Source: Sphingopyxis macrogoltabida
GTDB lineage: Bacteria > Pseudomonadota > Alphaproteobacteria > Sphingomonadales > Sphingomonadaceae
Direction of reading: 5' to 3'
Assembly (NCBI RefSeq): GCF_001307295.1
Contig: NZ_CP012700.1
Coordinates: 4,157,001 to 4,221,000 of the forward strand
DNA length: 64,000 nucleotides
Under the pieces are notes generated by a model, which was not told the DNA's origin, ran no database searches, and worked only from the letters and a program-made list of their open reading frames with translations. Below, in pieces: positions 53,754 to 63,331 of this stretch; position 1 is the first letter of the stretch, and every line of letters starts with the position of its first letter. Made by a program: the position numbers and the translations under genes.

Positions 53754-54028
53754 CGTCGTCCTTTCCGCTCGACCGGCCGCCGATTGTCGTTTTGATCCAA
53801 TGATTGCGCGCACCCGGCGCGCATCCCGTAGCCACGGCCAGCGCAGGGACGCTTAGGCCGACAACAGATACGGCACAGGCTGGCCGGCGCCCGATCGATA
53901 GGGACGCCAGCGATCCGCGCCGCATCGTCGGCCGAATAACCGCTGTCCGCTACCCAAGCAAAACCCGCCGTCTGTCGACGCGCGCCCTTTGGCGCGTGGG
54001 CAAACCCCAATGCACAAGGAGAATGGAA

Positions 54029-54355
54029 ATGGCTGGAAAACATGATGCCGAAAAGCTCAAGACCCTGGCATCGGTCTCGACCGAACGCCGCAAGCTGATC
54101 GGCCAGGCGATTATCGACGGGTTGATCTCGCCCGGCGAAGCCGCCTTTTCGCCGGTAGCGGCCGACCCCGACTATAATCAGGGTCAGGGCGGCTACACTC
54201 AGAAGGGCGGCGACCACAAGCAGGGCGGCGGCGACTATAACCAGTCGCAGGCACTCACCAACATCCGCGATCTCGTCACCAACGTCATCCAGCCGGGCAA
54301 TGTCGTTCAGCCCGGCAATGTCGCAGGCGGCGTTACACGCGGCGGCGGCCGCTAA
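54029..54355 (+). CDS. RiPP precursor candidate with Tyr/His-X-Gln heptads
   Basis: 108 residues from the ATG at 54029, chosen because AAGGAG lies eight bases before it (an ATG at 54023 is too close to that site). Residues 1-47 look like a leader: a charged helix (DAEKLKTLASVSTERRKLIGQAIIDGLISPGEAAF region). Residues 48-75 are four exact heptads: DYNQGQG, GYTQKGG, DHKQGGG and DYNQSQA. Residues 86-97 repeat VIQPGN/VVQPGN, and a Gly/Arg tail follows. There is no Cys, Ser/Thr-rich ring pattern or signal peptide. The maturase gene starts 42 bases downstream. The reading as a precursor peptide is inference from context and repeat form. Confidence 0.78.
   Translation: MAGKHDAEKLKTLASVSTERRKLIGQAIIDGLISPGEAAFSPVAADPDYNQGQGGYTQKGGDHKQGGGDYNQSQALTNIRDLVTNVIQPGNVVQPGNVAGGVTRGGGR
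54170..54253 (+). repeat. Four tandem heptad codon repeats in the precursor
   Basis: Encodes four 7-residue units with the aromatic residue at precursor positions 49, 56, 63 and 70 and Gln two residues later in every unit. Consensus (D/G)-(Y/H)-X-Q-X-X-(G/A). The period is 21 bases exactly. Confidence 0.9.
54284..54319 (+). repeat. VxQPGN hexapeptide repeat in the precursor tail
   Basis: Two adjacent 18-base units encode VIQPGN and VVQPGN (residues 86-97), followed by a partial third (VAGG). It lies in the C-terminal follower region, after the aromatic heptads. Confidence 0.8.
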
Positions 54356-54397
54356 AAGCGGCAGCTTCATTTATCTCGAGACGATGAAGGATTGCTC

Positions 54398-55642
54398 GTG
54401 AACCAGCAACTCGGCATCGCTCCGGCGGCGGACACCCTTGTTCGTCGCCGCGAGTGGCGGGCCAGCCAGCCCGATTCGATCGACGCGCTTCAGGTCGTCT
54501 ACAAGGTGGCCGAGCGCTGCAACATCAACTGCAGCTATTGCTATTATTTCCACATGGGCGACGAAACGCCGCTCGAACGCCCCGCCTATGCGCCGCATGC
54601 GGTGACCGAGCGGCTGGCGCACTGGATGGCCGACGGCTGCGCGGAACTGCGCATCCCGCATGCCAAGCTCGCCTTTCACGGCGGCGAACCGGCGATGATC
54701 GGCGCCGACGCGTTCGGCAAGGCCTGCCGGACACTGCGCGACGTGATCGAACCCGTCGCAACGCTGTCGCTTGCGATCCAGACCAACGGCGTGCTGCTCG
54801 ACGAGCGCTGGACCGACCAGTTCATCGAACATGCGGTCGGCGTCGGGATCAGCATCGACGGCCCGCAGGCGGCCAACGACCGCTTCCGGCTCGACAAGCG
54901 CGGCCGGTCGACCTTCCAGCGCAGCGAGGATGCGATCCGCCGCCTCGTCGCCGCGCGCCCCTATGGCGCGCCGCTGCCCTCGACGATCAGCGTGCTGCAC
55001 AGCGCCAACGACTATCGCGACATCTATCATTATCTGCGCGATCTGGGGGTCGAGGAACTCAATTTCCTGCTCCCCGACCGCAATGTCGACGATACCGCCT
55101 TCCGCGCCTCGGACGAGGCGGCCGACTATGGCCGCTGCCTCTCGGAAATCTTCGACGCCTGGCTCGCCGAGGACAATCAGGCGGTGCGCATCAAGTTCAT
55201 CGACCAGACGATGGTCCATTTCCGCGCCAGCGTGACCCCCGGCGCGATCTTTCGCCGCGGGCGCAAGAGCAATCAGGTGGTGATCGCGCGCAGCGACGGC
55301 ACGGTGGCGATCGACGACAGCTATATCCCGGCGCTCGACTGGTACAGCCGCGCCCCGGTGCGGCCGATGGCAACGCATTCGCTGCGAGATTTCCTGGGCA
55401 ATCCGATCTTTCAGGAGATCGAGACGACGGCGAACAGCATCCCCACCGGCTGCCGGGACTGCCGCTGGCGCGACATGTGCCGCGGCGGCGACCTCGAAAA
55501 CCGTTTCTCGGCAGCGAGCGGCTTCGACAACCCCTCGGTCTATTGCGGCGCGTACAAGGGCCTGTACGCAACGGTTTGCCAGCGGCTCGTCGAAGGCGGT
55601 TATCCCGCTCATCTCGTCACAGAAAAATTCGGTGCCCTATGA
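54398..55642 (+). CDS. Radical SAM/SPASM peptide maturase (cyclophane-type candidate)
   Basis: 414 residues from a GTG at 54398 with AAGG seven bases before it; a TTG at 54392 is the alternative. The radical SAM cluster motif is C41-N-I-N-C45-S-Y-C48. A GGE-like AFHGGEPAMIG and a SPASM-type C-terminal Cys set (C352, C355, C361, C383 and C394) for auxiliary Fe-S clusters follow. Enzymes of this layout install C-C, C-O or C-S cross-links in RiPPs. Since the precursor lacks Cys, a carbon cross-link at the aromatic residues is the best guess. The stop overlaps the next ATG (ATGA). Confidence 0.88.
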   Translation: MNQQLGIAPAADTLVRRREWRASQPDSIDALQVVYKVAERCNINCSYCYYFHMGDETPLERPAYAPHAVTERLAHWMADGCAELRIPHAKLAFHGGEPAMIGADAFGKACRTLRDVIEPVATLSLAIQTNGVLLDERWTDQFIEHAVGVGISIDGPQAANDRFRLDKRGRSTFQRSEDAIRRLVAARPYGAPLPSTISVLHSANDYRDIYHYLRDLGVEELNFLLPDRNVDDTAFRASDEAADYGRCLSEIFDAWLAEDNQAVRIKFIDQTMVHFRASVTPGAIFRRGRKSNQVVIARSDGTVAIDDSYIPALDWYSRAPVRPMATHSLRDFLGNPIFQEIETTANSIPTGCRDCRWRDMCRGGDLENRFSAASGFDNPSVYCGAYKGLYATVCQRLVEGGYPAHLVTEKFGAL

Positions 55643-56829
55643 CTCACGACCAGACCGCGGCATGGCTGTTCCATCCGCTTTCCACCGACCGCTTCCTGTC
55701 CGACTTCTGGGCGAAGGAGCATCATCTCGTCCGCCGCAACGACCCTGGCTATTTCGCCGGCCTGTTCAGCGCCCGGGCGCTCGAGGAATTCCTCGAATAT
55801 GGCCGCCCCGACCCTGCCGGTGTCCGGCTGGTCAAGGGCAAGGAGAAAAAGGAGCTCGCCGCCTATCGCCTCGGCAACGGCGCGATCGACATGGTTGCGC
55901 TGCGCAACGATTTCGCGGCGGGCTTCACGATCATCCTCAACGGCCTCGAACGCTATGTCGGCGCGGTCGCGGCGCTGGCACGCTCGCTGGAGGTCGAGCT
56001 CAACTTCGAAACGCAGGTCAACGCCTATATCACCCCGCCCGGGTCGCAGGGGTTCCTGCCGCATTACGACGACCATGACGTCATCATCCTGCAGATTCAG
56101 GGTTCGAAGCGCTGGCACATCTATGAACAGGAAGGCGACGTGCCCGCCAGCGAGCTGCAGCAGCGCGAGCTGTTCGTCGGCGAAGACCTGTCGCCCGCGA
56201 CGCAATTGATCCTTCGCGCCGGCGACGTGCTCTACGTCCCGCGCGGCCGGGTCCACGCCGCCGAAACGCTCGACGAGACGTCGATCCACCTGACGCTCGG
56301 CATCCATCCGCCGAACATGCTCGAACTCGTCAAGGCGGCGCTCGACACGATGGCGATCCGCGACGACCGGGTGCTCGAACGGCTGCCGCCGCGCTACCTC
56401 AACGACCCGGCGCAGCGCGCTCGCCTCGCCGGGCTGGCGCGCGAGCTGGCGGCGATGATCGACGACCGCGCGATCGGCGATGCGGTCGGCGCGATCGAGG
56501 ACAGCCTGCTCCGCCGCGGGCGCTGTCCGCCCGCCGGCCGGCTCGTCGACGACGTGACCGGCAGCGGCCACATCACCGAGGCGAGCCGGCTCGCGCGCAA
56601 CCAGCCGCTCTATGCCCGCGTCATGGCGCTGCCCGGCGGGGTCGGGCTGCAATTCGCGCAGACGCTCGTCACCGCGGATAGCAACCACCGCGACGCGATG
56701 CTGTTCCTGTCGCGGCGAAAGGATCCGTTCCGCGTTGCCGAGATCCCGGGCATATCGGCGGGCGAGCAAACCGACCTCGCGCGCAAGCTGCTTGTCGACG
56801 GCTTCCTGGTCCAGGTGCCTGCGGCCTGA
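55639..56829 (+). CDS. JmjC/ribosomal-oxygenase-like Fe(II)/2-oxoglutarate dioxygenase
   Basis: 396 residues. The double-stranded beta-helix resembles the YcfD/MINA53 type that hydroxylates Arg, His or Asn in proteins. The Fe ligands are H142-x-D144 (FLPHYDDHDV) and H206 (VPRGRVHAAE), with ILQIQGSKRWHIY and the GDVLYVPRG stretch between them. A helical dimerisation segment and a winged-helix-like C-terminus (~250-396) follow, as in YcfD. It is coupled to the radical SAM gene by a 4-base overlap, so its substrate is probably the modified precursor. Confidence 0.87.
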   Translation: MTHDQTAAWLFHPLSTDRFLSDFWAKEHHLVRRNDPGYFAGLFSARALEEFLEYGRPDPAGVRLVKGKEKKELAAYRLGNGAIDMVALRNDFAAGFTIILNGLERYVGAVAALARSLEVELNFETQVNAYITPPGSQGFLPHYDDHDVIILQIQGSKRWHIYEQEGDVPASELQQRELFVGEDLSPATQLILRAGDVLYVPRGRVHAAETLDETSIHLTLGIHPPNMLELVKAALDTMAIRDDRVLERLPPRYLNDPAQRARLAGLARELAAMIDDRAIGDAVGAIEDSLLRRGRCPPAGRLVDDVTGSGHITEASRLARNQPLYARVMALPGGVGLQFAQTLVTADSNHRDAMLFLSRRKDPFRVAEIPGISAGEQTDLARKLLVDGFLVQVPAA

Positions 56830-56831
56830 CG

Positions 56832-58001
56832 ATGCAACGGCTCGCACCGCCACCCCGCGCCGCGATCAGTGATAGGGCGGCGATCGAAGTCGGCCTGTTT
56901 CTCACCGGCCTGGCCGGGGAGGCGGAGACGGCGGCGCGGCTCGGGATTTGCCCCGCCGAGCTGCGCGAACTGCTCGACAGTCTGGCGCTGTCGCGCTGCG
57001 CGATGGTCCCCGTCGGGGTCGGCGACAATCTCGATATCCGTTTCCTCGACATGGCGGGCGAGGCGTTCGATGCGCCGACCTTCGACGATAGCGTCGATCA
57101 CGCAAAGTCGCGGGCCGGGTCGCCCCGAACGTTCAGCCTGCCGGCCAACGCCATCGCTGCCGCCGAGCAGCCGCGCGCCGCCCCGGACGGCATCATCCTC
57201 CACGTCGGCCGCTGCGGCTCGACTCTCCTTTGCAACCTGCTCGCAAGCAACGGCGACTGGGCCGCGCTGCGCGAACCCGAATTTTTGAACGGCCTGTTCC
57301 TCGCCCGCGCCGCGACACGCGATCCGGCCGCGATCGATCGCATCGACACGCTGGCCGAGCAGCTGGCGGGCTGCCTCGCCCGCGCCGTGCGCCCACGCAA
57401 ATCGCTCGTGAAGCTCAGTTCGTGGACAACCCCGCTCGCCGCGCCGCTGCTGGCGCGCTTCCCCGGCACCCCGGTCATCGTCGTCGTCCGCGACCCTTGG
57501 CAAACGGTCGCCTCCTTCCTTGCCGAACCGCCGCATTGGTATGGCCCCGCCAGCGCGGAGCTCGCGGCAAACGAAAGGGCCGGCGCGGTCCGGTTCTTCG
57601 CCGAAGCCTGGCGAAGCACGGTCGCAGCCGCACGGTACCTGCCCGGCGAGCGCATCATGTTCGTCGATTATGAGGCTATCGTCGGCAACCCCGCCGCAAC
57701 CCTCGCCAAGCTCCGCCGTCATCTGGGCGACGAAGGCCCGCCGCCCGCCCCGGCGGCGCTGGAAGCGACGCTGGCGTCCTATTCCAAAGCAGCATCGACC
57801 GAGCCGTTCGACCCGTCGGGAAAGCACCGGCGCGCGGTTCTGCCCCCCGATCTCGCCGATATCGTCACCGCGGTCACTGCCGGCGAATGGTCTGGCTGTC
57901 GGCGCCGCGAAGCCGGCAAGGCGTTCGTCGAAGAAATGGCGCGCTCGGCCGCTTCCTCAAGCCGACGCCGATCCGGCGAAGAAGGCTCGCATTGGCAGTA
58001 A
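56832..58001 (+). CDS. Sulfotransferase-like protein in the RiPP operon
   Basis: 389 residues, starting two bases after the dioxygenase stop. The N-terminal ~115 residues are a separate domain with no recognised family, possibly a peptide-binding helix bundle (LSDRAAIEVGLFLTGLAGEAE region). From ~120 the sulfotransferase fold begins: the PAPS 5'-phosphate loop G126-R-C-G-S-T-L-L-C-N135 and the 3'-phosphate motif VVVRDPWQTVASF (R220, D221). The C-terminal tail is Ser/Arg-rich. It could transfer sulfate to Tyr or a hydroxylated residue; related folds also occur in non-sulfating proteins. Confidence 0.75.
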   Translation: MQRLAPPPRAAISDRAAIEVGLFLTGLAGEAETAARLGICPAELRELLDSLALSRCAMVPVGVGDNLDIRFLDMAGEAFDAPTFDDSVDHAKSRAGSPRTFSLPANAIAAAEQPRAAPDGIILHVGRCGSTLLCNLLASNGDWAALREPEFLNGLFLARAATRDPAAIDRIDTLAEQLAGCLARAVRPRKSLVKLSSWTTPLAAPLLARFPGTPVIVVVRDPWQTVASFLAEPPHWYGPASAELAANERAGAVRFFAEAWRSTVAAARYLPGERIMFVDYEAIVGNPAATLAKLRRHLGDEGPPPAPAALEATLASYSKAASTEPFDPSGKHRRAVLPPDLADIVTAVTAGEWSGCRRREAGKAFVEEMARSAASSSRRRSGEEGSHWQ

Positions 58002-62422: not shown

Positions 62423-63331
62423 ATGAACGAGCTTATCCAGATTGGCCCGATCAGCCCGCTACGCCAGCGGCTGATCGACGATATGACCATGCGCCGCTTC
62501 TCGAAGGAGACGCAGCGTAACTATCTGCGCGACGTCGGGCGGTTCGCGACCTGGCTCGGACGCTCGCCCCACACTGCGAGCGCCGAGGATATCCGGCAGT
62601 TCCAGATCGAGCAGCAGCAGGCAGGCGTCCCCGCGCCAACGATGAACAGCATCGTGGGCGCATTGCGGTTCTTCTTCACCCACACGCTCGATCGCCCCGA
62701 TCTCGCGCGCAAGCTGGTCCGCACCAGGCAGGTGCGCAAGATCCCGGTGGTGCTGACGATGGCCGAGGTGAAGCGGCTGCTCGATGCCACGCGCTCGCTC
62801 AAGCACCAGGCCGCGCTGTCGGTCGCCTATGGCGCGGGCTTGCGCGTTGCCGAGGTGTCGGCGCTGAAGGTGACCGATATCGACAGCAAGCGGATGCTGC
62901 TGCGGATCGAGCGCGGCAAGGGCGGCCGATACCGCAATGCCATGCTGCCCGAAGGCCTGCTCCTGCTCCTGCGCGACTGGTGGCGCGCTGGACGACAACA
63001 GGGCATCCTCGTTCCCGATGGCTGGCTTTTCCCCGGACAGAGCGCCGCGGCGCCGATCAGCACGCGCCAGCTCTACCGTGTCGTCGTCGAAGCCGCGGAG
63101 GCCGCCGATATCGACAAGCGCGTCGGACCGCATACGCTGCGCCACAGCTTCGCCACCCATCTGCTCGAGGACGGCGTCGATATCCGCGTCATCCAGGCGC
63201 TGCTCGGCCATGCCAAGCTAAACACCACCGCCTTCTATACGCAGGTCGCAACGAAGACCGTTCGGTCGATCGTCAGCCCGCTCGACAGGCTCGCGCTCGC
63301 ATCGCCGAGCGGGGAGGTTCCTGACGGCTAA
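62423..63331 (+). CDS. Tyrosine recombinase associated with an IS91-type element
   Basis: 302 residues. An N-terminal SAM-like domain (FSKETQRNYLRDVGRFATWLGR) precedes a catalytic domain with the conserved Arg in YGAGLRVAEVSAL, the HxxR box HTLRHSFATHLLEDG, the following His in LLGHAKLNTTAFY and the nucleophile Tyr in that segment. Such integrases accompany IS91-family transposases as accessory recombinases. The transposase starts six bases after its stop. Confidence 0.88.
   Translation: MNELIQIGPISPLRQRLIDDMTMRRFSKETQRNYLRDVGRFATWLGRSPHTASAEDIRQFQIEQQQAGVPAPTMNSIVGALRFFFTHTLDRPDLARKLVRTRQVRKIPVVLTMAEVKRLLDATRSLKHQAALSVAYGAGLRVAEVSALKVTDIDSKRMLLRIERGKGGRYRNAMLPEGLLLLLRDWWRAGRQQGILVPDGWLFPGQSAAAPISTRQLYRVVVEAAEAADIDKRVGPHTLRHSFATHLLEDGVDIRVIQALLGHAKLNTTAFYTQVATKTVRSIVSPLDRLALASPSGEVPDG

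Follow-up and report, generated by a model that had tools for sequence, protein, structure and literature searches.

The closest described counterpart of the locus considered here is YhhABC of Vibrio, a system for a ribosomally synthesized and post-translationally modified peptide (RiPP) in which one operon encodes a precursor with Tyr/His motifs, the radical S-adenosylmethionine (SAM)/SPASM cyclophane maker YhhB (NF041707), and the 2-oxoglutarate (2OG)-Fe(II) oxygenase YhhC (NF041706). The Vibrio oxygenase next to yhhB is named "cyclophane-containing peptide 2OG-Fe(II) oxygenase YhhC" at NCBI. The work of Sugiyama et al. 2022 on triceptides reportedly also describes a hydroxylase. In the triceptide descriptions of PMC11002830, YhhB is reported to link Tyr C3 or His C2 to the β-carbon of Arg, YxdB to link Tyr to Asp, and HaaB to link His to Ala, and Gln is not named there as a ring acceptor. 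Here, an operon of four genes, A to D, was analyzed in a 64,000-nucleotide stretch of the Sphingopyxis macrogoltabida genome (contig NZ_CP012700.1, positions 4,157,001 to 4,221,000; the window). It is reasonably probable that the product is a triceptide-like RiPP with Tyr/His-to-Gln rings that would be hydroxylated and, in a probable final step, sulfated on Tyr; we infer the reactions, their sites, and their order as given for each enzyme below.

The four genes are real open reading frames (ORFs), tightly packed on the plus strand, and their coordinates stand as first described. A (54029..54355) encodes the candidate precursor peptide of 108 residues. B (54398..55642, GTG start) encodes a radical SAM/SPASM enzyme of 414 residues, a predicted Tyr/His-to-Gln cyclophane maker; C (55639..56829) a NO66/MINA53-like JmjC 2OG/Fe(II) oxygenase of 396 residues, predicted to hydroxylate the peptide; and D (56832..58001) a sulfotransferase (PF13469) of 389 residues, whose model is closest to tyrosylprotein sulfotransferases (TPSTs) and which is predicted to sulfate it. 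The ATG of A at 54029 is preceded by AAGGAG (54016-54021) and the GTG of B at 54398 by AAGGA (54387-54391), with a gap of 42 bases between the two genes. An earlier note on this DNA had described overlapping or 2-base junctions among the enzyme genes, and B and C were indeed found to overlap by 4 bases (ATGA, 55639-55642), with C and D 2 bases apart. No protease or exporter gene lies within the operon. A hairpin at the A-B junction was considered as an attenuator and dropped, as it is not conserved in the relative G035 or in S. flava; the scan that gave it found 7 terminator-like sites against 3.7 expected.

The precursor consists of a leader, a glycine-rich core with four [Y/H]xQ motifs, and a 36-residue tail with a QPGNV repeat and, as had been noted for this small repeat protein, contains no Cys. 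The core motifs, all on the plus strand, lie at Y49-N-Q51 (54173..54181), Y56-T-Q58 (54194..54202), H63-K-Q65 (54215..54223), and Y70-N-Q72 (54236..54244). They take in all three Tyr and the only core His of A at a spacing of seven residues, and this count was matched by 27 of 200,000 shuffles of A, placing it above chance. Throughout the related precursors, every core Tyr and core His keeps Gln at position +2 and the middle residue varies: YDQ, YTQ, HRQ, and YNQ in S. flava; YDQ, YTQ, HNQ, and YNQ in G724 (45% identical to A); HGQ, YRQ, YSQ, YSQ, and YTQ in G1290; and YAQ, YGQ, YDQ, YTQ, and YSQ in Pseudoalteromonas. For the last three precursors, 0, 9, and 2 shuffles per 200,000, respectively, reached their own motif count. 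A suggestion that HxQ strictly marks the presence of a JmjC gene was contradicted by HGQ in G1290 and G1401.

Comparison with relatives also revealed a leader motif, KLIGQAIIDGL (A residues 22-32; 54092..54124, plus strand), which reads KMIGTAIIDGL in G724 and DFIGQSIIDGL in G1290 and G1401. The stretch IGxxIIDGL, through which B would bind the leader, is common to Sphingopyxis and these three genomes and is not in the Pseudoalteromonas precursor, whose leader ends ISGG. The C-terminal FxSxx motif that marks precursors of the FxSxx-COOH system was not found in A, which ends VTRGGGR. The ratio of nonsynonymous to synonymous substitution rates (dN/dS) of A, 0.04 against G035 and 0.09 against S. 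flava, indicates that it is under purifying selection. The earlier note had treated homologues of the small protein without the enzymes as a sign against a RiPP; none was seen, and an A-type gene stands directly before a B-type enzyme in three Sphingopyxis genomes, G724, G1290, G1401, and Pseudoalteromonas, which is a weak test, since B or C was the starting point from which most of these precursors were located. It is very likely that A and B are a RiPP precursor and its maturase.

The radical SAM motif of B, C41xxxC45xxC48, lies where it had been reported and is invariant in all seven B-type enzymes aligned. The five C-terminal Cys reported with it are present, but only C352, C355, C361, and C383 are invariant in that alignment; a full SPASM pattern has seven Cys, and the B group shows four invariant C-terminal Cys. 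The proposed analogy with the triceptide class is supported by the closest curated families, which are cyclophane makers by name, and by phylogeny. The three highest NCBIfam scores of B were with YhhB (241.7 bits, cutoff 445), XyeB (234.5 bits, cutoff 450), and FxsB (226 bits, cutoff 370), and an adjacent precursor with a repeated aromatic-x-x motif, a feature of the class, is present. In a maximum-likelihood tree of 21 enzymes, the seven YxQ enzymes grouped together, separately from the XyeB, YhhB, and FxsB examples, at 90/97, just under the strict support mark of 95/80 and with some long outgroup rows whose placement is unsure; over 200 bootstrap trees, one change was seen in 88%. Support reached 100/99 for a group of six of the seven. 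B would use radical SAM chemistry to join the aromatic ring of each of the three Tyr and of the core His to the β-carbon of the Gln two residues on, yielding up to four three-residue rings along the glycine-rich chain, and formation of such Tyr/His-Gln cyclophanes is likely.

Weighing against this, B falls below the cutoff of every curated family; the YhhB, XyeB, and FxsB cutoffs are also unmet by the G1290, G724, and Pseudoalteromonas enzymes. The same shortfall would suit a RiPP operon in which these motifs receive a different modification from B (an ether, a C-N link, a C-C link not involving Gln, or an epimerization), as would its lower scores with the DynA, DarE, and PapB models, whose members make other links. 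DarE is described as making an ether link, and the dynobactin enzyme a C-N link in the text of PMC11002830. A thioether is unlikely because A lacks Cys. That the top three scores all belong to cyclophane makers, and that Gln is retained at +2 of every core Tyr and His beside a variable middle residue, argues against such a modification, which we consider unlikely. Among solved structures, ChlB is the nearest relative of B, followed by sulfatase maturases, so that B might be pictured as an anaerobic sulfatase-maturase-like enzyme for which A is not the substrate. This was rejected as extremely improbable: B scores too low at 166.3 bits (cutoff 349.45), 75 bits under its YhhB score, no sulfatase is present among the six flanking genes scanned, and the A-B pairing is found in four lineages.

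In C, the metal ligands claimed from the sequence, H142-x-D144 and H206, hold and are invariant in five aligned proteins, that of the window included. C matched Pfam JmjC_2 with 103 bits (cutoff 22) and the HxD..H triad in place, and its nearest solved relatives are the NO66/MINA53 hydroxylases; no NCBIfam model matched up to an E value of 0.1. In blastp, C did not match Vibrio YhhC at E ≤ 10, which suggests two separate recruitments of an oxygenase for this step. There is a good probability that C acts on the peptide, which it would hydroxylate with oxygen and 2OG, most likely at the β-carbon of the central Asn/Asp of motifs 1 and 4, the His of motif 3 being the other candidate site. Asn/Asp is ranked slightly above His because the JmjC-bearing lineages have it at the central position of these two motifs, as Vibrio YhhA does in its own motifs, and because it is found in just one of nine Tyr motifs (YDQ) of G1290 and Pseudoalteromonas. 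Hydroxylation of the His of HxQ instead would agree with the nearest solved relatives, as NO66 and MINA53 are His hydroxylases, and with the occurrence of HxQ as motif 3 in both JmjC-bearing lineages; but G1290 and G1401 carry HGQ without a nearby JmjC gene, and YhhA, whose operon includes an oxygenase, carries YDR, HNR, and HNR with mid-motif Asp/Asn. We regard the His site as a serious candidate that is nonetheless somewhat the less probable.

D carries the 3′-phosphoadenosine 5′-phosphosulfate (PAPS)-type loop that the earlier note had recognized (HVGRCGSTLL at residues 124-133); G035 and S. flava have the same loop sequence, and an Azospirillum relative has HAGRCGSTLV. PAPS sulfotransferases are marked by a 5′ PAPS loop and by an Arg and a Ser for the 3′ phosphate. 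R220 and S228 of D are invariant in all four aligned proteins, and R127 of the loop, E148, K194, R220, and S228 are so even in the Azospirillum protein, which is 30% identical. D matched PF13469 at 52.2 bits (cutoff 27), and the best fold matches of a low-confidence model were TPSTs (TPST1/2 and tick TPST), to which profile matches were weak (E values of 0.019 for tick TPST, 0.11 for TPST1, and 1.3 for TPST2). With PAPS, D would sulfate the Tyr phenols or the new hydroxyl, and action of D on the peptide is slightly favored.

Two observations tell against a role for D: it was found in Sphingopyxis only, and it evolves faster than the other three genes. Between the window and G035, dN/dS was 0.02 to 0.08 for A, B, and C and 0.35 for D, whose values span 0.31 to 0.38; in S. 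flava, D is 44 to 45% identical and B 87%; and the 95% alignment of the window with G035 extends from at least 45,789 (the edge of the compared piece) to 57,912 and then diverges inside the 3′ end of D. These values suggest that D is under either different selection or looser constraint. They would also fit a RiPP pathway of A, B, and C alone, with D an unrelated or decaying hitchhiker that sulfates some other acceptor, as would the lack of a D match beside the cassettes of G724, G1290, G1401, and Pseudoalteromonas. We consider this rather unlikely: D starts 2 bases after C in the window and is next to it in G035 and S. flava as well, and the five residues named above are invariant even in a protein encoded in a lasso-like RiPP cluster that also has a JmjC_2 gene. 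That cluster, in Azospirillum sp. TSH100 (L071), includes PqqD, HPr-kinase-like, and asparagine-synthase-like proteins, with the D-type sulfotransferase annotated as a beta-hydroxylase and the JmjC_2 gene on the other strand. By gene content, it is a second RiPP-like cluster in which D-type and JmjC enzymes meet.

The complete A-B-C-D set, which had been proposed for a search in other sphingomonads, was found in 3 of 148 relatives (G000, the window's own genome; G034; and G035). Beyond it, a [Y/H]xQ precursor with a related B recurs in another genus of the family (G724), in Pseudoalteromonas, and in a pair of genomes from a different class, so that three layers are seen: A-B (G1290, G1401, and Pseudoalteromonas), A-B-C (G724, with B 50.5% and C 34% identical), and A-B-C-D (Sphingopyxis). 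No C or D match was present within 16 kb around each A-B of G1290 and G1401 or within 13 kb in Pseudoalteromonas, where the next genes encode a protein without a Pfam match and a glycosyltransferase; G724 had no D match within 30 kb. G357, G1290, and G1401 are members of a different class within the phylum, at a guess the Gammaproteobacteria.

With B as the query, some match at E ≤ 0.001 was obtained in 23 of 148 relatives, and stricter thresholds left 5 of 398 genomes of the phylum (E ≤ 1e-45), 2 of 240 of the class (1e-60), 2 of 114 of the genus of G724 (1e-40), and 2 of 47 of the order of G1290 (1e-70); the Pseudoalteromonas enzyme matched 3 of 321 genomes in the class of G357 (1e-60). A search with A matched 7 of 397 family genomes at E ≤ 0.01, one strongly (the own genome) and six weakly (E values of 0.001 to 0.008), in a sample that did not report G034, G035, or G724. 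A motif screen of short loci for these six passed one 249-residue ORF (L076), which was judged a chance ORF. C matched 22 of 296 genomes of the order at 1e-15, a search that found G724, and among the wider surroundings of five matches (G724, G579, G096, G650, and G274, of 21 C-match genomes besides the own), A and B were present only in G724. Among plasmids, B matched 165 of 72,556 records, all below 60% identity and the best two from Pseudoalteromonas; A had no plasmid match, and another precursor-based plasmid search gave two Pseudoalteromonas records. These low counts, from family to phylum and in plasmids, indicate that the system is rare and scattered.

The surroundings of the cassettes were also recorded. 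In G724 (L061 2089-15943), the same-strand neighbors of A-B-C encode an ECF sigma factor, a Ser/Thr kinase with TPRs, a TIR-TPR protein, and a trypsin-like protease, a setting that recalls the conflict systems for which modified peptides beside TIR proteins are described in PMC7159879. In G1290 and G1401 (L088 and L092, respectively), A-B is 96% alike in rearranged surroundings; its neighborhood in L088 includes a NERD protein and a type IIG restriction-methylation gene, and L092 has similar stretches as well as a nearby PDC-S59-like ATPase. PADLOC and Pfam scans of such neighbor genes offer a lead, not an explanation. In G1492 (L093 3172-3480, minus strand), a related radical SAM enzyme is preceded by what may be a different type of precursor, with repeats containing GGNFVSAPAMSG, three times. 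On pLA4 of Novosphingobium pentaromativorans (L095), yhhA-yhhB has as neighbors a Piwi gene and its Aga_REase-type partner, which probably make up a short prokaryotic Argonaute system. Divergent from the S. flava operon (L028 6-2110) are genes for HlyD-like and MacB-like exporters; none adjoins the operon in the window, and an exporter was rejected as part of it. Downstream of D come a TonB receptor and then, at ∼4.4 kb, a phage-type integrase gene (window 62423-63331).

Among the matches listed in the open-licence literature searched, outside which the main triceptide papers lie, no triceptide with a JmjC or sulfotransferase gene was found. The earlier note had not recognized the combination as a characterized one. 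The whole set was not found described in that literature, but its parts have precedents in YhhABC, in the JmjC enzyme described for biphenomycin (PMC12707348), and in putative sulfotransferase genes noted in Firmicutes lasso clusters (PMC8498205), so the operon is a variant rather than a new kind of system. Tentatively, and at a little under an even chance, it would represent a hitherto undescribed branch of the triceptides, with rings at [Tyr/His]-x-Gln, that spread through Proteobacteria as a bare precursor-maturase pair and gained a NO66-like JmjC hydroxylase in sphingomonads and, in Sphingopyxis, a TPST-like enzyme sulfating cyclophane tyrosines; its product would be a bacterial peptide that combines cyclophanes with hydroxylation and tyrosine sulfation. 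If true, Gln as a ring acceptor, a JmjC hydroxylase, and tyrosine sulfation would be added to cyclophane peptides, and the natural series A-B, A-B-C, and A-B-C-D would allow the tailoring steps to be tested one at a time, with one more enzyme for each. Should D prove to sulfate Tyr, bacteria would have a peptide tyrosine sulfotransferase that acts on a ribosomal peptide and could serve as a tool, and it would be of interest what a sphingomonad gains from producing such a peptide.

Compared with YhhABC, the precursor differs, YhhA being short with [Y/H]xR motifs in place of [Y/H]xQ; B is well under the YhhB cutoff, C is not of the YhhC type, and no sulfotransferase is annotated in the Vibrio stretch compared. 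XyeAB and FxsAB share the enzyme superfamily and gene pairing of A-B but have different precursors and curated scores that B does not reach, and genes for HlyD and a peptidase-ABC exporter adjoin the Xenorhabdus XyeB gene, with none here. C shares the JmjC_2 domain and HxD..H triad of its nearest solved relatives, the NO66/MINA53 ribosomal oxygenases and YcfD, but is encoded in a RiPP-type operon, and its substrate is presumably A rather than a ribosomal protein. BipG, the JmjC ornithine hydroxylase of biphenomycin, likewise tailors a RiPP, a likeness by description only, in a pathway described with MNIO and B12-type radical SAM enzymes (PMC12707348). Human TPST1/2 and tick TPST resemble D in the PAPS-type loop and fold, but structure alignments gave 15 to 18% identity, and D is bacterial with ∼110 extra N-terminal residues. 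A triceptide-like RiPP with an oxygenase is already known; this operon is a variant by virtue of its core motif, its oxygenase family, and its sulfotransferase.
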